Below are positions 7,136-51,471 of a stretch of DNA of 64,000 nt, one piece after another. Below the pieces are notes generated by a model that saw nothing but the letters and a program-made list of their open reading frames with translations, ran no database searches and was not told the DNA's origin. Positions within the stretch are counted from its first letter, which is position 1; the number at the start of each line of letters is the position of its first letter. A program made the translations under genes and the position numbers. Origin of the DNA: Rhodobiaceae bacterium UBA4490 (GTDB lineage: Bacteria; Pseudomonadota; Alphaproteobacteria; Parvibaculales; Parvibaculaceae); the NCBI GenBank assembly GCA_002389665.1, contig DGNO01000002.1:195624-259623 (forward strand). Reading direction: 5' to 3'.

Positions 7136-8323
7136 TTACGCGGCCGCCACTTCCGGCCGCACCTCATAATTGCCGTAATAGCCTTGAATGGCATTCTGGC
7201 GTTGATAGAAACCGGCATGCACTGCGCCGATCAGCTCCGGCACAAATCCGGCGACCGAATGCTGGGGCACGAAATCGAGAACTTCGCGGATCTTGCGGAA
7301 GGAAACCCGGTAATTACGGGGATCCGACCCATGCTCCACGAAATTCACTTTACCGTCGATGTGCTTGAGAATCTCTTCGATGATCATCGCTTTGGTGTAG
7401 TTGTTCTCATCCGAGCCGACATTGAACACCTCGCCGCGCACCTTGGTTTCATCCGCTTCCAGCACACGGATCACGGCACCGGCAATATCGCGCACATGGC
7501 AATAGGGTCGCCATGTATCTTTGTCATAAACGTCGAGAGCTTCGCCGCGCGCCAAGGCTGCGGTAAACTCGTTCACCGTAAGATCGAAACGCATGCGCGG
7601 GCTTAAGCCGAACGCCGTCGAAATGCGCAGGATAGTCGGTATGAAATCAGCTTTATCCGCATGCGTTAGAATGTATTTTTCAAACGCCACTTTTGTTTCC
7701 GCATAAATCGAAAGCGGCTTCAGCTCGGCCTCTTCCGTCGCAGGGTCATCGGAGGTGCGCATGCCGTAGTTCGAGCATGTTGAGGTAAAAACGAACTTAT
7801 GGATGCCGCGGCCTTTCATCGCTTCGAAAAGCGCCTCGCTGCCTCCGCCGTTCACGGACCGGGTCAGCTCCGGATATTTCTTGGAAATCGGATCGCCGAC
7901 CAGCGACGCAAGCAGCACGACGTCCGTCACCCCGTCCAGCGCCCGGTCCAATACGGCCTGGTCACGCATATCCCCGAACACAAAGCTAAATCCGGGCTCG
8001 TCGAACAACCCTTCCATCGACAGCGAATTGGCATAAAGGAAGTTATCCAGAACACGCACGCCATAGCCTTGCTTCAAGAGCTCGCGCACCATCACCGCGC
8101 CGACATATCCTGCACCGCCCACCACAAGCACCTGGCGCGCCCGCAGCGGGCCCCGCTGCGCCTCACGCTCAAGCCGGCTCATCGTATCTTGCAGCGCTTC
8201 AACCGCGCGCGCGGCATCACCCGCTTTCAGCCAATTGGCGCAAGCGGAAAGAGCCGCCCTATAGACGGCTTCGTCGGCAAGAGGATCGGCTGACACAGGC
8301 GGGCGGGAATCGTTCGATGCCAT
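7136..8323 (-). CDS. Extended-SDR NAD-dependent sugar epimerase/dehydratase with N-terminal extension
   Basis: First gene of the nonulosonate operon, 395 residues. A charged extension of about 60 residues precedes the Rossmann motif VLVVGGAGYVG. The catalytic tyrosine-lysine pair is in YAETKVAFEK. The segment before it reads TSTCSNYG. 4,6-dehydratases such as LegB or RmlB carry an acidic residue there (STDEVYG or STSEVYG), so this protein looks more like an epimerase or reductase than the expected LegB. It lies 9 bases upstream of legC and clearly belongs to the operon. The substrate is unknown. It could be a divergent dehydratase, or a later-acting sugar C4/C5 epimerase. Confidence 0.8.
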   Translation of the reverse strand: MASNDSRPPVSADPLADEAVYRAALSACANWLKAGDAARAVEALQDTMSRLEREAQRGPLRARQVLVVGGAGYVGAVMVRELLKQGYGVRVLDNFLYANSLSMEGLFDEPGFSFVFGDMRDQAVLDRALDGVTDVVLLASLVGDPISKKYPELTRSVNGGGSEALFEAMKGRGIHKFVFTSTCSNYGMRTSDDPATEEAELKPLSIYAETKVAFEKYILTHADKADFIPTILRISTAFGLSPRMRFDLTVNEFTAALARGEALDVYDKDTWRPYCHVRDIAGAVIRVLEADETKVRGEVFNVGSDENNYTKAMIIEEILKHIDGKVNFVEHGSDPRNYRVSFRKIREVLDFVPQHSVAGFVPELIGAVHAGFYQRQNAIQGYYGNYEVRPEVAAA

Positions 8324-36989: not shown

Positions 36990-37117
36990 GGAAAGCCCGC
37001 GCAAGAGGCTGGACTTACGGCACATGCCTTGCCAGAATTTACTAGACTGCGGTCCAGTCATGGGGCCCAGTCGCGCAATTGCGCGGCTGGAGGAAGGCTG
37101 AAAGGCCGGGAGGAAAG

Positions 37118-38608
37118 ATGAGCCGCATTATCGTTCTGGGCGCCGGAATCGGCGGGCTTTCGGCTGCCATTGCGCTGGCAGGCGAAGGACATGAGGTCAC
37201 GGTGATCGACCGCGACCCGCCGCCGCCCGAGCTTTCCGCCAATGCCGCCTTTGACGAATGGCAGCGCCGGGGCGTCGGCCAGCTGCGCCACAGCCATGCC
37301 TTTCTCGCCCGGCTCTATCAGCTCATCCGCGAAAACCACCCCGCCCTGCTTGCCGATCTTCTGGAGGCCGGCTGCCGCGAGCTGAAATTCGCCGATACCG
37401 TGCCCATGCCGCTCGTCCCCTCTTACGTGCCGGCAAAGGGCGATGAGCATCTGACCATTCTTTCAAGCCGCCGCACGACGCTTGAACTCATCATGCGCCG
37501 CTATGCCGCCCGCCAGCCCGATGTCACCTTCCGCACCGATGAGGTGGTGGAAGGTCTGATCGCGGAAAAGAATGCGGACGGTCAGGCCGTCATCCATGGC
37601 GTCACGTTACGCTCGGGCGAAAAAGTAACGGGCGATCTGGTTGTCGATGCGATGGGGCGGCTCAATCCGGGCGCCGGCTGGCTGAAAGAACTCGGGGTTC
37701 ACATCCGCGAGGAAGATGCACCTGCCGGCATCGTCTATTTCACCCGCCACTACCACATCAAAAACGGCATGAGCGAGCCGGAACGCACCGCCGCCCCCGG
37801 CGCCGCCGATCTCGGCTTCCTCAAATTCGGTGTCTTTCCGGGGGATAATGGCTGCTTCTCCATCACCCTTGCGGTACCCGAGGTCGAGCGCACGCTCTCA
37901 AAAGCCATTCTGGATACGGAGGTCTTCGACAAAGTCTGCCGCTCCATCCCCGGCCTTGCCCCCTGGCTCGAAGAAGAGCGCACCGAGCCGCGCTCGAAAG
38001 TCTTCCTGATGGGCAATCTCTTCAGCCGCTGGCGGCATATGACCGAGGCGGGCAAACCCCATGTGCTGAATTATTTTCCGCTTGGCGATTGCCACATCCG
38101 CACCAACCCGCTTTACGGACGCGGCTGTTCTTTCGCTGCCATTCAGGCGCATATCCTGCGCGATGTGCTGCGGGCCGAAGACGATCCGATAAAACGCGCG
38201 ATCGCCTATCATGCAGCGACACGCGAAGAGATCCGCCCCTATTACGACAATATGGTCAAACAGGACCTCGGGGCGATCAAACGCGCGCGCAATGAACTCA
38301 CGCCGGGCTATAAGCCAAGCTTTAAGGCGCGGCTCATCAAACGCTTCACCGAAGACGGCATCAATATCGCCATCCGCTCCGATATCCAGCTTTACCGCGC
38401 CTTCATGCAAGGCTTTCACATGCTTGCCCATCCCACCGCCTGGCTGCTGGAAAACAAAAAGAATCTCGCCAAGGTCTTGTGGGTCTGGGCGCGCGGGCGC
38501 AGATGGAACCGTAAATACTACCCGCCCCGCACAGGGCCGGAGCGCACAACGCTTTTCAACATGCTCGGCCTTCCAAAAGACGCCGATCTGATTACGGATC
38601 AAGCCTGA
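37118..38608 (+). CDS. FAD-dependent monooxygenase/reductase-like flavoprotein
   Basis: A 496-residue flavoprotein with the FAD motif IIVLGAGIGGLSAAIALAGEGHEVTVIDRD at residues 4-34. The second FAD motif is in the YFPLGDCHIRTNPLYGRGCSFA stretch near 340-360. Overall layout recalls geranylgeranyl-reductase or halogenase-like flavoproteins. GGAGGAAAG precedes the ATG. It starts a plus-strand run with an epoxide hydrolase, an NTF2-like protein, a small membrane protein and an ABA4-like protein, which suggests oxidation of a lipid or isoprenoid, an inference only. Confidence 0.82.
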   Translation: MSRIIVLGAGIGGLSAAIALAGEGHEVTVIDRDPPPPELSANAAFDEWQRRGVGQLRHSHAFLARLYQLIRENHPALLADLLEAGCRELKFADTVPMPLVPSYVPAKGDEHLTILSSRRTTLELIMRRYAARQPDVTFRTDEVVEGLIAEKNADGQAVIHGVTLRSGEKVTGDLVVDAMGRLNPGAGWLKELGVHIREEDAPAGIVYFTRHYHIKNGMSEPERTAAPGAADLGFLKFGVFPGDNGCFSITLAVPEVERTLSKAILDTEVFDKVCRSIPGLAPWLEEERTEPRSKVFLMGNLFSRWRHMTEAGKPHVLNYFPLGDCHIRTNPLYGRGCSFAAIQAHILRDVLRAEDDPIKRAIAYHAATREEIRPYYDNMVKQDLGAIKRARNELTPGYKPSFKARLIKRFTEDGINIAIRSDIQLYRAFMQGFHMLAHPTAWLLENKKNLAKVLWVWARGRRWNRKYYPPRTGPERTTLFNMLGLPKDADLITDQA

Positions 38609-38633: not shown

Positions 38634-39617
38634 ATGACCCAGGCACCCGCCATGCCCGATCCCATTTTCGTTGAAACGAACGGCATCAACATGGCCGTCT
38701 ATGAAGCCGGGCCGAAAGACGGCGTGCCGGTCGTACTTTGCCATGGCTGGCCGGAGCTTGCCTATTCCTGGCGCCATCAGATCCCGGCGCTTGCGGCGGC
38801 AGGCTTCCGCGTCATCGCGCCCGATCAGCGCGGCTACGGGCTGACAGGAGGGCCGAAGGGCGAGGAAAACGTCCCCCTTTACGACATCGAACATCTGACG
38901 GGCGATCTTGCCGGTATGCTCGATGCGCTTGGCATCAATAAAGCGGTCTTTTGCGGCCATGACTGGGGCGGCATTGTCATCTGGCAAATGGCGCTTCTGC
39001 AGAAAGAGCGCGTTGCAGGCGTCATCGGCGTCAACACACCCTTCATCCCCCGCCTTAACTCCGATCCCATCGAGGCGATGCGCGCGGTCTATGGCGAGAA
39101 AATGTATATCGTTTTCTTCCAGCGCTTCGGCGAGGCGGAAAAACTGCTGGGCAAGGACACCGCCCGCTCCTTGCGCTTTTTCTATCGCAAAAGCGGCGTG
39201 ACCGCCGAAGAGTGGGAAAAAATGCCCGCCGAGGAAAAAAATCTCTCCTTCCTCGATGCGCTGGAAACACCGGAGGAAGAATGGCGCGGCAGCCCGCTTC
39301 TGAGCGATGAAGAATATACGGTCTATACCAAAGCCTTCGAGCAATCGGGCTGGGAAGGCGGCATCAACTGGTACCGCAATTTCTCGCGCAACTGGCGTCT
39401 GAGCGAAGGCGTGGAGCAGAAAGTCACCGCGCCGGGCCTGATGATTTCCGCCGCGGACGACGTGGTGCTGCCGCCCGCCATGACCGAGGGCATGGAAAAA
39501 TATGTGCCGGACCTCGAAAAGCACATCATTCCGGCCTGCGGTCACTGGACACAGAGCGAAAAGCCGGATGAACTGAACACACTCATGATCGATTGGCTCA
39601 AACGCCGCTTTGGCTGA
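38634..39617 (+). CDS. Alpha/beta-fold epoxide hydrolase
   Basis: A 327-residue enzyme. The oxyanion-hole motif is HGWPELAYSWRHQ, the nucleophile aspartate lies in CGHDWGG, and the catalytic histidine is in CGHWTQSEKP near the C-terminus. An aspartate nucleophile with HGWP fits epoxide hydrolases, which open epoxides to diols. It begins 25 bases after the flavoprotein gene, so the flavoprotein might supply the epoxide. Confidence 0.9.
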   Translation: MTQAPAMPDPIFVETNGINMAVYEAGPKDGVPVVLCHGWPELAYSWRHQIPALAAAGFRVIAPDQRGYGLTGGPKGEENVPLYDIEHLTGDLAGMLDALGINKAVFCGHDWGGIVIWQMALLQKERVAGVIGVNTPFIPRLNSDPIEAMRAVYGEKMYIVFFQRFGEAEKLLGKDTARSLRFFYRKSGVTAEEWEKMPAEEKNLSFLDALETPEEEWRGSPLLSDEEYTVYTKAFEQSGWEGGINWYRNFSRNWRLSEGVEQKVTAPGLMISAADDVVLPPAMTEGMEKYVPDLEKHIIPACGHWTQSEKPDELNTLMIDWLKRRFG

Positions 39618-40522: not shown

Positions 40523-40653
40523 CGCACACGCCCACCTGTCTTACACTCTTTGCTTGAGTTGCCTTAGCCGCCTGCTAGGCTTCCTGCCACTGCGCAGGGG
40601 CCGGCGGCAGGGCATGCTGCCGCTCCCCTGCCCGTTTGAAGGGGGAGAACGTC

Positions 40654-41115
40654 ATGACGCCTGATGCCATTTTTCTGATCGCCACATATGGCCTTGTGCC
40701 TTTCTGGCTACTGCTTGTGGTGCTGCCGCGCTGGAGCGGGACGCAGTTTCTTGTGCACTCGGCGCTACTGCCGCTGATCTTCGGCTGTCTTTATACCTAC
40801 TATCTGGCCGTTGCCTCTTTCGGCGGCGGACAGCCGGAAGGCGCGAGCTTCGGCACGCTGGCGGGCGTCATGATCTTCTTCCAGATGCCGGAAGCGGCGC
40901 TTGCCGGCTGGCTGCATTATCTCCTGTTCGATCTTTTCATCGGTGCCTGGGAGGCGCGCGATGCGCAGCGGCGCGGCATGTCCCATTGGCTGGTCATCCC
41001 CTGCCTCGTCTTCACCTGGCTTGCCGGGCCGCTTGGCCTTCTGCTTTACATCGTCCTGCGCGCGGTATCGGGCAAAGGCGGCTGGCGGCTTCAGCCAGCC
41101 GATGCCCCTGCGTAA
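40654..41115 (+). CDS. ABA4-like (DUF4281) membrane protein
   Basis: A 153-residue protein with four membrane helices (starting MTPDAIFLIATYGLVPFWLLLVVLP, with GWLHYLLFDLFIGAWEARD and FTWLAGPLGLLLYIVLR). This is the family of plant ABA4, which is needed for neoxanthin formation. Bacterial members have no settled role. The ATG at 40654 follows GGGGGAGAACGTC. Earlier genes in the run include a flavoprotein and an epoxide hydrolase. Confidence 0.88.
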   Translation: MTPDAIFLIATYGLVPFWLLLVVLPRWSGTQFLVHSALLPLIFGCLYTYYLAVASFGGGQPEGASFGTLAGVMIFFQMPEAALAGWLHYLLFDLFIGAWEARDAQRRGMSHWLVIPCLVFTWLAGPLGLLLYIVLRAVSGKGGWRLQPADAPA

Positions 41116-41440: not shown

Positions 41441-42799
41441 ATGTCGCAGGCCCTGGACCGGCAAGAGGCGTTTGAAACGCCCGCGCCGCCGCAGAGCGGA
41501 AACGCGCCGTCCGATGCGACGATCGCCGCGCTATCGGGCAACCGCCCGCTGCGCATTCTTCTGCCCAGTTACCGCTCCAACCCGACGACCGGCGGCCAGG
41601 GCGTTTACATGCGCCATATCTCCAAGGCACTTGTCGATCTCGGCCATACGGTGGATGTGATTTCCGGCCCGCCCTACCCCGATCTCGACCCGCGCGTCGG
41701 GCTCATCAAGCTGCCCTCGCTCGATCTTTATGCCAATCCCCACCCCATTCGCGCCTTCCGGCCCTGGATGCTGACCTCCCCCATCGATCTTTTCGAATGG
41801 TGGAGCCACAATTGGGGCGGCTTCTCCGAGCCTTATACGTTCGGCGAGCGCATGGCGCGCTACATGCAAGGCCGCATCCACGAATATGACGTGATGCATG
41901 ACAACCAGACGCTCTGCTGGGGCATGCTGAAAGTGCGCGACATGGGCCTGCCCGTCGTCGGCACGATCCACCACCCGATCACCATGGACAAGCGCATCGA
42001 CATCAAGCACATGCCGGGCCCGTTCATGAAATTCCTGAAATGGCGCTGGTATTCCTTCCTGCGCATGCAGATCAAGGTGGCCCGCCAGCTCGATCCCGTC
42101 ATCGTCGTTTCCGAAAGCACGAAACGCGACGTAACGCGCGATTTCAAACTCGATCCGCAAAAGATGCGCCTCGTGCTGCACGGCATCGACCATGAAACCT
42201 TCCGTCCGCGCCCGGATGTAAAGCGTCTGCCGAACCGGCTGATCGCCTGCGCCAGCGCCGATGTGCCGCTGAAGGGCCTTATCTATCTTATCCGCGCTTA
42301 TGCGGAGCTGCTAAAAACGCGCCCCGATCTCGAGCTTTATGTGATCGGCAAATTGCGCGAAGGCCCGACCGCCACGGAGCTGCGCAAACTCGGCATCATC
42401 GATAAGGTGAAGTTCATCACCAACCTCACCGACGACGACATTACCGAGCAATATGCCAAGGCGACCATTGCCGTCTCTCCTTCCGTTTATGAAGGTTTCG
42501 GTTTTCCGGCGGGCGAGGCCATGGCATGCGGCGCCCCGGTCATTGCAACGACGGGCGGCTCCCTGCCGGAAGTCGTGGGAGAAGCGGGCGTGATCGTGCC
42601 CCATTCCAACCCGCCGGCACTGGCCGAGGCGATTGCGGGCCTACTCGACAATCCGCAAAAGCGCGACGAGCTCGGCAGGCTTGCCCGCGAGCGCATCCTG
42701 CGTGAATTCAAATGGGAACGGACCGGCCGCCAGGTGGTCGAAGTATATAAAGAGGCAATGGCCAATGCGAACGGTGGACTTCAATACGCTGGGTCTTAA
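41441..42799 (+). CDS. GT4 glycosyltransferase, ManT-like
   Basis: A 452-residue GT-B enzyme of glycosyltransferase family 4. The N-terminal donor-binding loop is PTTGGQGVYMRH, and the C-terminal EX7E motif lies in VYEGFGFPAGEAMACG. The N-domain reads LLPSYRSNP and SGPPYPDLDPRVGLIKLPSLDLY. I recall the same wording in actinobacterial GT4 enzymes annotated beside methylmannose polysaccharide genes, where ManT adds alpha-1,4-mannose. AAGGAGAGG precedes the ATG. It overlaps the next gene by 35 bases, so it is the first gene of the cluster. Confidence 0.88.
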   Translation: MSQALDRQEAFETPAPPQSGNAPSDATIAALSGNRPLRILLPSYRSNPTTGGQGVYMRHISKALVDLGHTVDVISGPPYPDLDPRVGLIKLPSLDLYANPHPIRAFRPWMLTSPIDLFEWWSHNWGGFSEPYTFGERMARYMQGRIHEYDVMHDNQTLCWGMLKVRDMGLPVVGTIHHPITMDKRIDIKHMPGPFMKFLKWRWYSFLRMQIKVARQLDPVIVVSESTKRDVTRDFKLDPQKMRLVLHGIDHETFRPRPDVKRLPNRLIACASADVPLKGLIYLIRAYAELLKTRPDLELYVIGKLREGPTATELRKLGIIDKVKFITNLTDDDITEQYAKATIAVSPSVYEGFGFPAGEAMACGAPVIATTGGSLPEVVGEAGVIVPHSNPPALAEAIAGLLDNPQKRDELGRLARERILREFKWERTGRQVVEVYKEAMANANGGLQYAGS

Positions 42800-43487
42800 A
42801 GACGGGCTGCGTGTGCTCGATCTGGGATGCGGCGAAGGACGCCATGTGCATGCCATGTATCACCACGCCGTCTGTCATGTCGTCGGCGTCGATCTTGCCT
42901 TTGACGATGTAAAGAAGACCCGCGAAGGCTTCAGCGCCTGCCCGGACATGGACCCGGAAACGAAGCGTGTCTATTCGCTGTGCGTCGGCAACGCGCTCAC
43001 CCTGCCCTTCGCCGATAACAGCTTCGACAAGATCGTCTGTTCCGAAGTGCTGGAGCACATTCCCAATCACCGCCAGGCACTGAAAGAAATCACGCGCATT
43101 CTGAAGCCGGGCGGCACGCTCGCCGTTTCCGTGCCGCGCTATTGGCCTGAATGGATTTGCTGGGCGCTCTCTGAGGAATATCACAACGAGCCGGGCGGCC
43201 ATGTGCGCATCTTCCGCACCGGCCAGCTCAAAAAAGACGTAAGCGAGAACGGTCTTTCCTTTTTCCACCGCCACTGGGCGCATGGACTGCATTCACCTTA
43301 CTGGTGGCTGCGCTGCGCCGTCGGTGTGAAGAACACGAAGTCGAAACTCGTCGCCGCCTATCACCGCTTCCTCGTCTGGGACCTCGTCAAGCAGCCCTGG
43401 CTGACCCGCACGCTCGAAGCCTTGGCCGCGCCCTTGATGGGCAAGAGCGTCGTTCTCTATTTCACAAAGGAGAACCGCGCCGCATGA
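42765..43487 (+). CDS. Class I SAM methyltransferase, MeT3-like
   Basis: A 240-residue methyltransferase with SAM motif VLDLGCGEGRHVHAM and the KPGGTLAVSVPR strand. The start at 42765 (MRTVDFNTLGLKDG) lies within the end of the GT4 gene, an overlap of 35 bases. Its position beside a ManT-like transferase and a six-hairpin protein points to an O-methyltransferase acting on a polymannose or polyglucose chain, the slot MeT3 fills in mycobacteria. The acceptor is inferred, not seen. Confidence 0.86.
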   Translation: MRTVDFNTLGLKDGLRVLDLGCGEGRHVHAMYHHAVCHVVGVDLAFDDVKKTREGFSACPDMDPETKRVYSLCVGNALTLPFADNSFDKIVCSEVLEHIPNHRQALKEITRILKPGGTLAVSVPRYWPEWICWALSEEYHNEPGGHVRIFRTGQLKKDVSENGLSFFHRHWAHGLHSPYWWLRCAVGVKNTKSKLVAAYHRFLVWDLVKQPWLTRTLEALAAPLMGKSVVLYFTKENRAA

Positions 43488-44569
43488 CCTATCTGAGCTT
43501 CGGCGACCGGCTGCCCGAGGGTTTTTTCGACGGGTCGGTCCGCCGCATTCTCGAACTTCAGCGCGATAATGGCGCGATCCCCTGGTATGACGGCGGGGTG
43601 ATCGACCCGTGGAACCACACCGAAGCGGCGATGGGTCTGGCAACGCTGGGCGAGACGGAGGCCGCGCGCCGCGCTTTCCGTTATCTGATGGAGACCCAGC
43701 TCCAGGACGGCTCCTGGCACGGCGAGCTTGGCAGCGCGGTGCCGATGGATGAAGAAGAACAGCGCTTTACCGGCGATGAGGAAGATGTGCCCGACCCCAT
43801 CAGGGACACGAATTTCGCCGCCTATATCGCAACCGGCGCCTGGCATCATTATCTGCTCGACGGCGACCTTGCTCATCTCAAAACGCTTTGGCCCCATGTC
43901 GAAGCCGCCATCGACTGGGTGGTCGCCCATCAAAGCCCCCATGGCGACATTCGCTGGGCAGCGGACGAGCCGCGCACGCCCGAAGACGATGCGCTGATCA
44001 CCGGCTGCTCGTCGATCTATAAGAGCCTTGAATGCGCCATCTTCATTGCCCAGCGCCTTGGCGAGCCGAGCCGGCACTGGGCCGAAGCGCGCATGAAGCT
44101 CGGTGAGGCCTTACGCGAAAAACCTCACCGCTTCGACCGCACCTGGGAACCGAAAGACCGCTTTTCCATGGACTGGTATTACCCGGTGCTGGCCGGTGTC
44201 TTTACCGGCCAGGCGGCACGCGACCGGCTCGCCTCGAAGTGGGATATTTTCGTTGCCGAAGGCAAAGGCTGCCGCTGCGTGCTCGACCAGCCCTGGGTGA
44301 CGGTCGCCGAATCCGCCGAGCTTTGCCTGGCGCTGCTGGTTTCCGGTGAGCGCAAAAAAGCCGAAACGCTTCTTTCCTGGATCCATCAATGGCGCGCCGA
44401 TTGCGGGGCCTATTGGATGGGCTATCAGTTCGAAAATGCCGTTGCCTGGCCGGATGAAAAACCGGCCTGGACGGCGGCCGCCGTCATTCTGGCCACCGAT
44501 GCCGTGATCGGCATGACGCCCGCCGCACCGCTTTTCTCAGGCCGCCACCTGGCCGAGGCGGCGGAGTAA
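43484..44569 (+). CDS. Six-hairpin/prenyltransferase-fold protein, MmpH-like hydrolase candidate
   Basis: A 361-residue soluble protein with alpha-toroid repeats (LELQRDNGAIPWYDGGVIDPWNHTEAAMGL, RYLMETQLQDGSWHGE). Such proteins are often labelled prenyltransferase from fold alone, but no DDxxD-binding partner chemistry is evident. Acidic pairs near DWYYP and the DGG segment could be hydrolase residues. In mycobacteria the same slot is held by MmpH, an endo-mannosidase that trims methylmannose polysaccharide. Its ATG overlaps the methyltransferase stop as ATGA. Confidence 0.72.
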   Translation: MTYLSFGDRLPEGFFDGSVRRILELQRDNGAIPWYDGGVIDPWNHTEAAMGLATLGETEAARRAFRYLMETQLQDGSWHGELGSAVPMDEEEQRFTGDEEDVPDPIRDTNFAAYIATGAWHHYLLDGDLAHLKTLWPHVEAAIDWVVAHQSPHGDIRWAADEPRTPEDDALITGCSSIYKSLECAIFIAQRLGEPSRHWAEARMKLGEALREKPHRFDRTWEPKDRFSMDWYYPVLAGVFTGQAARDRLASKWDIFVAEGKGCRCVLDQPWVTVAESAELCLALLVSGERKKAETLLSWIHQWRADCGAYWMGYQFENAVAWPDEKPAWTAAAVILATDAVIGMTPAAPLFSGRHLAEAAE

Positions 44570-45169
44570 GCGCAGCGATTTCACCGCAGCAATTTCCTCG
44601 AAGAAGTTCGACGCCAGCGCCAGCTTGTAAATCTCATATGGCGGGCGCCCGCCATCTTCCGGGTTCGGAAAAACGTCGTGAATGGCGAGAATGCCGCCCG
44701 GTTTCACGAACGGCGCCCAGAGCCGGTAATCGTTCAGCGCATGTTCCATCGCATGTCCGCCATCGATGAAAACCATGGCAAGCGGCGTCGCCCAGCCGCG
44801 CGCCGCGACCGTTGACGGCGCGACCAGCGGCACGACGGTATCTTCAAGCCCTGCCCGGCGCAGCGTTTGGCGGAAGAGCGGCAGCGTATTGAGCAGCCCC
44901 GTCTCGGAATCGTAAAGCTCGCTGTCGTGATGCTCCCAGCCGACCTGATTTTCTTCCGATCCGCGATGGTGATCGAGCGCGAAAAGCACCGAGCCCACCT
45001 TCTGGCAGGCGGCGCCGAAATAGATCGTCGACTTGCCGCAATAAGAGCCGATCTCCAGGCAAGGCCCGAGCGCGCCAGCCTCCAGCGCCGCGCCGTAAAG
45101 CGCTTCGCCTTCTTTCGGGTCGAGAAACCCTTTCACGCTTTCTGGATCGATGGGCAGAGAAATACTCAT
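44537..45169 (-). CDS. Class I SAM methyltransferase (Methyltransf_24 type), MeT1-like
   Basis: A 210-residue enzyme. SAM motif LEIGSYCGKSTIYFG, the acidic binding site in FALDHHRGSEENQ, and the catalytic-metal region VFIDGGHAMEHALNDYRLW with LAIHDVFPNPEDGG match metal-dependent O-methyltransferases of the CmcI/MeT1 type. MeT1 methylates the reducing-end mannose in mycobacterial methylmannose polysaccharide. The gene is convergent and overlaps the six-hairpin gene by 33 bases at its 3' end. The substrate is inferred from context. Confidence 0.84.
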   Translation of the reverse strand: MSISLPIDPESVKGFLDPKEGEALYGAALEAGALGPCLEIGSYCGKSTIYFGAACQKVGSVLFALDHHRGSEENQVGWEHHDSELYDSETGLLNTLPLFRQTLRRAGLEDTVVPLVAPSTVAARGWATPLAMVFIDGGHAMEHALNDYRLWAPFVKPGGILAIHDVFPNPEDGGRPPYEIYKLALASNFFEEIAAVKSLRLLRRLGQVAA

Positions 45170-46101: not shown

Positions 46102-46254
46102 CCGACGCCCTTTCTTAACCGTTTTTTACCAAGAAGACCGTAGCAAAAGCCGACTTTCCGGTTTTGCCCGCCCCTTTCTCCCGTTTCATCAACCAAAAGG
46201 CAAGAAAATCAAAGTTTACTATGAAAAAGCTTACATGGTTTGAGAGGATCCGCC

Positions 46255-47172
46255 ATGTCTGAACCGGCAGCCGCCCAGAAGGCGCAAAGGTCAGAAGATG
46301 CAGAGTTCGAGGCGATCGAACAAGCCGTGCTGGACACCCCGCGCGGACGCTGGTTTCTGAAAGAATATGCACGGCGCAACCGCCATGCCGATACGCGCGA
46401 ACTTGCCAGCGCCATCGAGAAGCTGGGCCGCGCGGCGCTCGTCTCCGCAGAGCAGACCCATCTCGACGTGATGCGCCGCGAGCTGCAGGAAATGAGCGCC
46501 TCGATCCAGCAGACGCGCTCTGAGATTGCCGCCATCAAACCGGCGGATGAGGCCTCCGAAAACCGCATCATGGCGGCAACCGAAGAACTGGACGCCATCG
46601 TCACCGCGACCGAGCGCGCCACATCCGATATTCTGGGCGCTGCCGAACGGCTGCAGGAGATCGGCGAGAAGCTGCGCGCACAAGGCGTCGATGAAGAGCT
46701 GTGCGAGGAGATCGATACCCACGCCACCAATATTTTCATGGCCTGCTCGTTCCAGGACATTACCGGCCAGCGCACGACGAAGGTCGTCAACGTGCTGCGC
46801 TATCTCGAGCAGCGCGTGAATGCGATGATCCAGATCTGGGGCGTCTCCAACAAAGACGGCCTGCAGGCACCGGAAATCCGGGATATGGACCAACGCCCCG
46901 ACGCGCATCTACTCAACGGCCCGCAAGCCGAAGGCCAGGGCGTGGACCAGGCTATGATCGATGCCATGCTGGATGGCGATGCCGCCACGCTGGAAGAAAA
47001 GATCGACAAAGTGGCCGCTGCCATGGAAGCGGCAGCATCCGAGACGCCAGCTCAGGTTCAGGCCCCAGCCCCCGCTGCAGCGGAAAAGGCGCCTGCGCCT
47101 GCAGAGGCCAAACTGCCGGCCGAGGAAGATGCGCCGATCGATCAGGACGATATCGACGCGCTCTTCGACTAA
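46255..47172 (+). CDS. cheZ: CheZ-type protein phosphatase
   Basis: A 305-residue chemotaxis phosphatase that dephosphorylates CheY-P. The catalytic motif CSFQDITGQRTTKVVN at about 164-179 corresponds to the FQDLTGQ helix of CheZ, whose glutamine performs catalysis. A long helical hairpin fills residues 60-160. A Pro/Ala-rich linker of about 50 residues leads to a C-terminal peptide DQDDIDALFD, the CheY-binding tail position. That tail strongly resembles the SQDEIDALL motif of FliM and FliN N-termini. The ATG at 46255 has GAGAGGA upstream. No other chemotaxis genes are adjacent. Confidence 0.87.
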   Translation: MSEPAAAQKAQRSEDAEFEAIEQAVLDTPRGRWFLKEYARRNRHADTRELASAIEKLGRAALVSAEQTHLDVMRRELQEMSASIQQTRSEIAAIKPADEASENRIMAATEELDAIVTATERATSDILGAAERLQEIGEKLRAQGVDEELCEEIDTHATNIFMACSFQDITGQRTTKVVNVLRYLEQRVNAMIQIWGVSNKDGLQAPEIRDMDQRPDAHLLNGPQAEGQGVDQAMIDAMLDGDAATLEEKIDKVAAAMEAAASETPAQVQAPAPAAAEKAPAPAEAKLPAEEDAPIDQDDIDALFD

Positions 47173-47281: not shown

Positions 47282-48061
47282 ATGTCCGACACCCTTCTCG
47301 TGGAAAAAGAAGGCGGTATCGCCACCGTCACGCTGAACCGCCCCAATGCCATGAACGCGCTGTCACGCGAGCTGCGCGCCGCGCTTGCAACGACCTTCGA
47401 TGAACTAGAAGCGGATCCTGAAACCCGCGTCGTCATCCTGACCGGCGCCGGTGACCGTGCCTTTACCGCCGGTCTCGACCTGAAGGAACTCGGCTCCGGC
47501 GGCGGCAATTTCTCCACCCAGGCCACCATTACCGATAAGGACCCGGTTACGTCCATCGGCAAGTTTTCCGGCCCGGTCATCGGCGCCATCAACGGCGTGG
47601 CTATTACCGGCGGCTTTGAAATCGCCCTGGCCTGCGACGTGCTCATCGCCTCGGAAAATGCCCGCTTCGCCGACACCCATGCCCGCGTCGGCATTTTGCC
47701 AGGCTGGGGCCTCTCGCAGAAACTCTCCCGCCTGATCGGCATTTACCGCGCCAAAGAGCTTTCGCTCACCGGCAATTTCATCGGCGCCGAGCAGGCCGCC
47801 GAATGGGGCCTCGTCAACCGCGTCGTGCCGCATGGCGAACTTCTGCCCACTTGCCGACAGCTCGCCACTGACATGCTCTCGGTCGTGCCCGAATGTCTGC
47901 CCGCCTATAAAGCGCTGATCGATGAAGGTTTCGGTCAGAGCTTCGGCGAGGGGCTGAAAACCGAAGCGCGGGTTTCCGGGGAAGCGAATACGAAAGTGTC
48001 CTCCTCCGCCATCGAGGAGCGGCGCGAAGGCATCCGCCAGCGCGGCAAGTCCCAGGCTTAA
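47282..48061 (+). CDS. Enoyl-CoA hydratase/isomerase (crotonase) family protein
   Basis: A 259-residue crotonase. The oxyanion-hole segments are FTAGLDLKELG and NGVAITGGFEIALACDV. The first hydratase glutamate is present (FEIALACD). The segment where the second would lie reads DTHARVGILPGWG, with His in place of Glu, so the reaction may not be simple hydration of enoyl-CoA. GGAGAG is upstream. A UUCG-loop terminator follows. Confidence 0.9.
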   Translation: MSDTLLVEKEGGIATVTLNRPNAMNALSRELRAALATTFDELEADPETRVVILTGAGDRAFTAGLDLKELGSGGGNFSTQATITDKDPVTSIGKFSGPVIGAINGVAITGGFEIALACDVLIASENARFADTHARVGILPGWGLSQKLSRLIGIYRAKELSLTGNFIGAEQAAEWGLVNRVVPHGELLPTCRQLATDMLSVVPECLPAYKALIDEGFGQSFGEGLKTEARVSGEANTKVSSSAIEERREGIRQRGKSQA

Positions 48062-50211: not shown

Positions 50212-51471
50212 ATGCTTTCGTCAGTATGGAATTGGCTGACCGCTGAACAAGGGTATACCCCGCACGGGTTTTGCCTCGTCTGGGACCCTGCGCTTGTCTG
50301 GATTCACGTCGTCTCCGACGCGCTGATTGCCCTTGCTTATTTCTCCATTCCCGCCGTCCTGTTCATCGCCGCGCGCCGCCGCCCGGACATGAACCCCCAC
50401 GGCGTGCTTTATCTTTTCAGCGCCTTCATCATCGCTTGCGGCGTCACCCACCTTTTCGGTATCGCGACGATGTGGAGCGCGCTTTATGCGGCCGAAGGAG
50501 TAGGCAAAGTCATTACGGCCACGATTTCCGTTATTACGGCGGTTCTGCTCTGGCCGCTGCTCCCACCGCTCCTCAACTCCCCTTCCCGGGTAGAATTGAA
50601 GAAAGCCCATTCTGACCTTGAAGCGCTGAACGAGAATCTGGAGCGCATGGTCGCGGACCGGACCGCCGCACTGCAGGAAACCTCGCAAAAGCTAGAAGCA
50701 GCCCTCGCCCAAGCCAAGCAAAGTGCGCAGGAGCGCACCTTGTTCTTCGCGACGATGAACCATGAGCTGCGCACCCCGCTCAATGCCATTGTCGGCTTTA
50801 CCGACATGCTGGAGACCATGTGGGACAAGCTGCCCGAAGACCGGCGCCGCGATTATCTCAGCGACATACGCACGGCGGGCCTGCGCCTCAACGGGCTCGT
50901 GACCGAAATTCTGGAAATCGAGCGGTTGAAGGAAAGCCCGCGCGCGGCCAAAGAAGGCGTGCGCTTTTCTCTGGCGGAAGCCGCCGGCAATGCCGTCAAA
51001 ATGCTGGAAGGCCCGATAGGCGCAAGTCAGGCCCGCATCACGCTCGACATTCCGGGCGACATCGAGCTCAGCGGCTTCCCGCAGGATTTCGAGCGGATTT
51101 TGACGAACTGCCTCTCCAACTCGATCAAATATTGCGACCGGCAGCCGGAAATCGAAGTGACCGCGCGCATAACCCCGGACAATCGCGCCCGGATCATCGT
51201 CGCGGATAATGGTATCGGCATTCCCACAAAAAGTTTGCGGGAGATTTTCGAACCCTTCCGCCGCTTCCACGAGCAGAGCCACCCGGATATCCCGGGTACG
51301 GGGCTTGGCCTGCCGCTGATCCGCGAGCTGACCAGCCAGTTCGGCGGCGCGGTGAGCTATCAAAGTACGGAAGGCAAAGGCACGACGGCCATCTTCACTT
51401 TCCCGCTCTGCGAGGTCCGCGAGCCGGCCCCCGCCGCCGGGGCAACCGTTTCACCGGCCCTTCCGGCTTAA
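50212..51471 (+). CDS. Histidine kinase with an ethylene-receptor-type membrane domain
   Basis: A 419-residue sensor kinase. Three membrane helices (about 32-55, 66-86 and 96-120) carry the ethylene-receptor pattern: Asp36, Tyr43, Ile46 and Pro47 in SDALIALAYFSIP, and Cys76 and His80 in FIIACGVTHL, which match Asp25, Tyr32, Ile35, Pro36 and the copper ligands Cys65 and His69 of ETR1. A short coiled coil (about 125-172) leads to the H-box with His184 (MNHELRTPL). The N box and DNGIGI/GTGLGL motifs complete the ATPase. No GAF domain separates them. GGGAG precedes the ATG. The partner regulator is not adjacent. Confidence 0.9.
   Translation: MLSSVWNWLTAEQGYTPHGFCLVWDPALVWIHVVSDALIALAYFSIPAVLFIAARRRPDMNPHGVLYLFSAFIIACGVTHLFGIATMWSALYAAEGVGKVITATISVITAVLLWPLLPPLLNSPSRVELKKAHSDLEALNENLERMVADRTAALQETSQKLEAALAQAKQSAQERTLFFATMNHELRTPLNAIVGFTDMLETMWDKLPEDRRRDYLSDIRTAGLRLNGLVTEILEIERLKESPRAAKEGVRFSLAEAAGNAVKMLEGPIGASQARITLDIPGDIELSGFPQDFERILTNCLSNSIKYCDRQPEIEVTARITPDNRARIIVADNGIGIPTKSLREIFEPFRRFHEQSHPDIPGTGLGLPLIRELTSQFGGAVSYQSTEGKGTTAIFTFPLCEVREPAPAAGATVSPALPA

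Follow-up and report, generated by a model that had tools for sequence, protein, structure and literature searches.

The 3-O-methylmannose polysaccharide (MMP) of mycobacteria consists of 11-14 alpha-(1->4)-linked 3-O-methylmannose units and is capped by 1-O-methylation. Mycobacteria also have the methylglucose lipopolysaccharide (MGLP), the other intracellular polymethylated polysaccharide for which acyl-chain binding has been proposed; it is glucose-based and made by a different gene set. Mycobacterial MmpH cleaves MMP to tetra-/penta- and hepta-/octamannosides, which ManT extends with GDP-mannose as donor; free reducing ends are capped by MeT1, and 3-O-methylation is presumed to be the task of pMeT3 (PMC9883506). 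One explanation offered for MMP is that it regulates fatty-acid metabolism in mycobacteria via the type I fatty acid synthase (FAS-I); MMP also binds acyl-CoA in vitro (PMC2674218). Here, we analyzed four overlapping genes, referred to as manT, meT3, mmpH, and meT1, at 41441-45169 of a 64,000-nucleotide stretch of DNA (the window) from Rhodobiaceae bacterium UBA4490, an alphaproteobacterium of the Parvibaculaceae (assembly GCA_002389665.1, contig DGNO01000002.1, positions 195,624 to 259,623). Judged from its predicted proteins, this is a module of a known kind in an unexpected host range.

When re-read from the sequence, the coordinates and overlaps given in an earlier note on this DNA were reproduced: the first three genes are on the plus strand and the last is convergent (Table 1). 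The manT and meT3 genes overlap by 35 bp (42765-42799), meT3 and mmpH by 4 bp (ATGA; 43484-43487), and mmpH and meT1 by 33 bp (44537-44569). Pfam and structure matches agreed with the proposed families: GT4, S-adenosylmethionine (SAM) methyltransferase, alpha-toroid, and Methyltransf_24. None of the four proteins reached the cut-off of any NCBIfam family shown. Promoter and terminator scans gave hardly more hits than shuffled sequences: 2 vs 1.1 and 6 vs 4.8, respectively.

The best match of the manT product in the PDB was 7qsg (E 2.2e-103), looked up as a structure of ManT, and the next structure was at 1.9e-23. The meT1 product matched 6g7d, which we take to be mycobacterial MeT1, with an E value of 6.8e-62, the remaining solved relatives being at 0.19 or worse. 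Searching the window's genome with the mycobacterial proteins, a check put forward in the earlier note, returned manT as the top match of the M. hassiacum ManT piece (344.8 bits; runner-up, 38.2) and meT1 as the sole match of the 6g7d piece. For the mmpH product, the best solved relative was mycobacterial MmpH (E 2e-82), and the Pfam matches were weak (MGH1-like_GH, 4.5e-05, under its cut-off). Its named database relatives were frequently labelled "prenyltransferase"; identity of 43484-44569 as a squalene-hopene cyclase or prenyltransferase was rejected because the 7qsj match lay approximately 245 bits above the cyclases. By homology, manT and mmpH are the counterparts of the alpha-(1->4)-mannosyltransferase ManT and the endo-alpha-(1->4)-mannosidase of MMP, respectively, and meT1, with 23 invariant columns across 106 aligned rows, is the predicted counterpart of the MMP 1-O-methyltransferase MeT1. 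The meT3 product is a Methyltransf_11/23/25-type methyltransferase by Pfam and is predicted to be the 3-O-methyltransferase. This assignment was made via its slot between manT and mmpH, which is that of pMeT3, and via the same-slot protein of a Nonomuraea cluster (47% identity over 236 columns); a search with this Nonomuraea protein gave no mycobacterial name among the 120 matches listed (Nonomuraea and related genera, where named). The link to the four mycobacterial enzyme families drawn in the earlier note was direct for ManT, MmpH, and MeT1, whose best solved relatives are MMP enzymes rather than members of unrelated families, and indirect for MeT3.

Residue numbers for ManT and MmpH were taken from PMC9883506, and each of the six ManT and ten MmpH residues named there was matched by the expected letter in the M. 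hassiacum pieces. In the ManT alignment (74 rows: the window and 73 loci passing a length filter, of 102 with a match), G15 and K240 were present in 74/74 rows and E313 and E321 in 73/74, the exception being locus L074, and position 291 (Leu) was a variable hydrophobic residue. K240, E313, and E321, which are needed for catalysis, are kept in the window protein. In L074 (5739-7258), an otherwise complete Pseudomonadales cluster, manT is broken across two reading frames. The MmpH alignment comprised 109 rows (108 loci and the window; 97 distinct sequences), one of them from the actinobacterium Nonomuraea. D47, W49, M215, Y219, E262, and E265 were invariant in all 109, and N101, T163, and F102 were kept in 107, 102, and 88 rows, respectively. 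The catalytic residues D47 and E262 (the base) are both found in the window protein.

Position 50 of MmpH largely separated the mycobacterial enzymes from the others: it was Asp in 20/20 rows sampled from at least 120 sequences close to M. hassiacum MmpH, and Asn in 107 of the 109 rows outside mycobacteria, including the window (Asp in L082 and L085). In the M. hassiacum enzyme, D47A and D50A each lose most of the activity, and the catalytic acid was left open (PMC9883506). The natural occurrence of Asn at position 50 favors Asp47 over Asp50 as the putative acid.

Conservation of gene order, another check suggested in the earlier note, was assessed in 81 loci: the best 80 of at least 565 MmpH relatives in a scan of GTDB contigs (L001-L080), a selection that leans towards close relatives, and the Nonomuraea cluster (L086). 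After 17 loci with short flanks were dropped, 63 of the 64 testable loci had manT-meT3-mmpH with a convergent meT1, as in the window; this neighborhood is therefore not due to chance. L017 (8001-13168) is the sole tested locus of the 64 without meT1 next to mmpH, with none within 4 kb. All four genes were also together in the four genomes of the phylum sample outside Parvibaculaceae (L082-L085), and in 26/27 further loci from genome searches (exception, L099). Titles among the best 80 relatives included Parvibaculum, PS1 clade, OCS116, IMCC14465, SO-S41, Halieaceae, and Pseudomonadales, among others, and the closest titled record among the matches listed was Tepidicaulis marinus MA2 (MmpH, 99%), an alphaproteobacterium of Parvibaculaceae. 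Counting the window's own genome in each sample, mmpH was found in 38/40 Parvibaculaceae genomes (27/27 of good quality), with no internal stops in the matches listed, in 34/385 genomes sampled across Alphaproteobacteria (12 family codes), and in 5/398 across Pseudomonadota. A scan of viral contigs with Nonomuraea MmpH found nothing, and that of a plasmid collection found one record, from Nonomuraea. From this distribution of the genes, an MMP-like polymer is likely made by many bacteria outside actinobacteria.

The window module shares with the mycobacterial MMP cluster (MHAS_04402-04405; PMC9883506) the ManT, MmpH, and MeT1 families, a methyltransferase in the pMeT3 slot, the gene order, the catalytic residues, and the MmpH fold; the mycobacterial order was read from consecutive MHAS and MAV locus tags, and so is based on tags, not on orientations. 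It differs in the Gram-negative alphaproteobacterial host with no match to the FAS-I marker (see below), in Asn50 of MmpH, and in an identity of 45-51%. The cluster of Nonomuraea gerenzanensis (L086) has the same order, the convergent meT1, and Asn50, with identities to the window of 45% (ManT), 47% (MeT3), 42% (MmpH), and 50% (MeT1); it differs in belonging to Actinomycetota and in a DUF1702 gene (7136-8143) between mmpH and meT1. In an unrooted MmpH tree (45 rows, several long branches), a branch with support of 98/97 set the 27 alpha-labelled rows apart from those of actinobacteria and those titled gamma, the actinobacterial rows formed one side of a 100/100 branch, and the gamma-titled rows needed two changes. 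A recent transfer from mycobacteria was rejected because, in this unrooted tree, the alphaproteobacterial rows are one side of the 98/97 branch. Across 32 rows (31 loci and the window), pairwise distances correlated among the four proteins at 0.75-0.90, as expected of co-inherited genes, although some correlation is expected for any genes of the same genomes.

The four genes thus quite probably specify a short cytoplasmic MMP-like chain of alpha-(1->4)-linked 3-O-methylmannose that would bind long acyl chains and be made by self-recycling. Homology, gene order, catalytic residues, a gene for GDP-mannose formation, and the wide presence of mmpH in Parvibaculaceae were observed, whereas the substrate, linkage, methylation positions, and acyl binding of the product are inferred. 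The GMP/PMI gene of the GDP-mannose pathway in the window's genome scored 675.4 bits with TIGR01479 (cut-off, 372.95), and PGM/PMM-family genes, assigned at the family level, were also present. In such a cycle, the MeT3-like enzyme would methylate added units at O-3, MeT1 would cap the reducing end at O-1, and MmpH would cut mature chains internally to yield primers, so that new chains would be primed by old ones, as proposed for mycobacteria. A fifth module gene was looked for and rejected, because the four genes were the only families in all 22 diverse loci chosen; other sets found in more than 9/22 loci proved, from where they lay, to be antisense shadows of the four genes, real neighbors occurred in 9 loci at most, and scanned flank genes differed from clade to clade. 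The lack of a fifth gene, such as an initiator, common to these 22 loci is in line with self-priming. The FAS-I marker PF08354 had no match in the window's genome (of 14 control genomes, Corynebacterium glutamicum alone matched), and an acyl-binding role would therefore serve the chains of the dissociated synthase (FAS-II) or fatty-acid uptake.

Several points weigh against this reading. The identity to the characterized enzymes is just 45-51% over the pieces compared, and the substrate could therefore differ; Asp50 of MmpH is replaced by Asn; and D293 of ManT, the proposed guanine contact (PMC9883506), is Asp in just 42/74 rows, the window among them. The MSMEG tags as printed (MmpH 6481, MeT1 6482) disagree with the MHAS/MAV order, pMeT3 is itself putative, and the text available to us names no initiating enzyme (PMC9883506). 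No report of such a product in a proteobacterium was found in the literature searched, in which MMP is described from actinobacteria only. A related intracellular O-methylated glycan other than MMP, with another sugar, linkage, or methylation pattern, or acylated like the acetylated MMP of Streptomyces griseus, would find room for a shift of specificity in these same differences of identity, MmpH position 50, and ManT position 293, and a hexapeptide-transferase gene, from a family including acyltransferases, adjoins meT1 in the Pseudomonadales locus L074. We nevertheless regard it as unlikely, because the four enzymes are kept together, MmpH is near-invariant at its catalytic positions and at most of those lining the substrate pocket in alpha, gamma-titled, and Nonomuraea rows alike, and no fifth family is common to the 22 loci compared. 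That the genes are a decaying or silent leftover, acquired from actinobacteria and making no product, is very improbable: the patchiness across Pseudomonadota and the broken manT of L074 would suit it, whereas the near-universal presence of mmpH in Parvibaculaceae and its intact frames in the matches listed, the kept active-site residues, and a supported branch of alphaproteobacterial rows not nested among the actinobacterial ones argue against it.

An envelope function, in which the module builds or decorates a glycan (the core or O-antigen of lipopolysaccharide, LPS) with methylated mannose and MmpH trims or edits it, appears quite unlikely. In pseudomonads, LPS core genes are kept at a site of the glnE/class-IV aminotransferase/3-deoxy-D-manno-octulosonic acid (Kdo) transferase type, and Oligotropha carboxidovorans is an alphaproteobacterium. 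In the Halieaceae locus L066 (1226-10982) and similar ones, the module has a glnE/class-IV aminotransferase/hydrolase block on one side and a Kdo transferase gene on the other, and an O-antigen that is an alpha-1,2 3-O-methylmannose homopolymer is cited for O. carboxidovorans (PMC9883506); both count against a cytoplasmic MMP-like chain. Together with a glycosyl transferase family 4 (PF00953) gene approximately 2.7 kb from the module in SO-S41 (L053), a major facilitator superfamily (MFS)/sugar transporter adjoining meT1 plus ATP-binding cassette (ABC) genes in L043, MatE and ABC-permease genes near the module in L064, and an ABC gene in L049, they make an envelope role conceivable. On the other hand, the remaining flank genes scanned in L043, L049, L053, L057, L064, and L074 (part of each flank) belonged to unrelated families. 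The same module is found in Nonomuraea, and actinomycetes such as Nonomuraea are LPS-free. Pfam identified no gene for a polymerase, a flippase, an ABC exporter, or a ligase among 11 window neighbors scanned (35.2-51.5 kb, 47282-48061 left out; two had no Pfam match), and no secretion gene lay among them. Although the O. carboxidovorans polymer is a 3-O-methylmannose homopolymer, it is an alpha-(1->2) O-chain of LPS, while the scanned neighbors of the window module include no O-antigen export or ligation genes. An MMP-like product thus remains the preferred reading, and the proposal in the earlier note of a related glycan outside actinobacteria is supported within the limits of a sequence-based test.

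Among the neighbors, the ABA4-like protein, FAD oxidoreductase, and alpha/beta hydrolase have relatives that recur upstream of the module in many loci from Alphaproteobacteria, and that were not found adjoining it in Halieaceae or Nonomuraea. The CheZ-like gene was the commonest real neighbor (9/22 diverse loci). The window also carries a histidine kinase with an ethylene-receptor-like domain (ETR1_N), which thus occurs in an alphaproteobacterium.

Table 1. Genes of the MMP-like module and selected neighbors (window coordinates).
Gene or product	Position	Strand	Length (aa)	Match or remark
manT, GT4 glycosyltransferase	41441-42799	+	452	Glycos_transf_1 4.5e-31, Glyco_transf_4 1.6e-22
meT3, class I SAM methyltransferase	ATG 42765, stop 43487	+	240	Methyltransf_11 2.7e-23
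mmpH, (alpha/alpha)6-toroid glycoside hydrolase	43484-44569	+	361	weak Pfam; 7qsj match
meT1, Methyltransf_24-type methyltransferase	44537-45169	-	210	Methyltransf_24 4.8e-24
FAD oxidoreductase	37115-38608			upstream of module
Alpha/beta hydrolase	38634-39617			upstream of module
ABA4-like membrane protein	40636-41115	+		PF14108 7.7e-38; upstream of module
CheZ-like protein	46240-47172	+		PF04344 7e-10
Histidine kinase, ethylene-receptor-like N-terminal domain	50212-51471	+		ETR1_N 6.7e-34

No link of MMP genes to Proteobacteria was found in a search of chiefly open-access literature, so that absence from print is unproven; co-mentions of "methylmannose" and "Proteobacteria" concerned other matters in the text available. 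The search in PMC9883506 covered actinobacteria only, and the word "proteobacteria" does not occur in the main text of that paper. The wide alignment informs two questions left by the mycobacterial system: the acid of MmpH (Asp47 over Asp50) and the initiator (none common to the 22 loci). Since the module is found in a genome without a match to the FAS-I marker, the function of the polymer, if made there, cannot rest on FAS-I alone. Whether MMP is a long-standing acyl-chain carrier of bacteria that is copied from its own fragments, standard in Parvibaculaceae, also found in PS1/OCS116 and Halieaceae, and serving acyl-CoA or lipid handling without FAS-I, rather than an actinobacterial speciality tied to FAS-I, is in our estimate an evenly balanced question. 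If this Gram-negative family makes the polymer, Mycobacterium is no longer the only setting in which to study its function.

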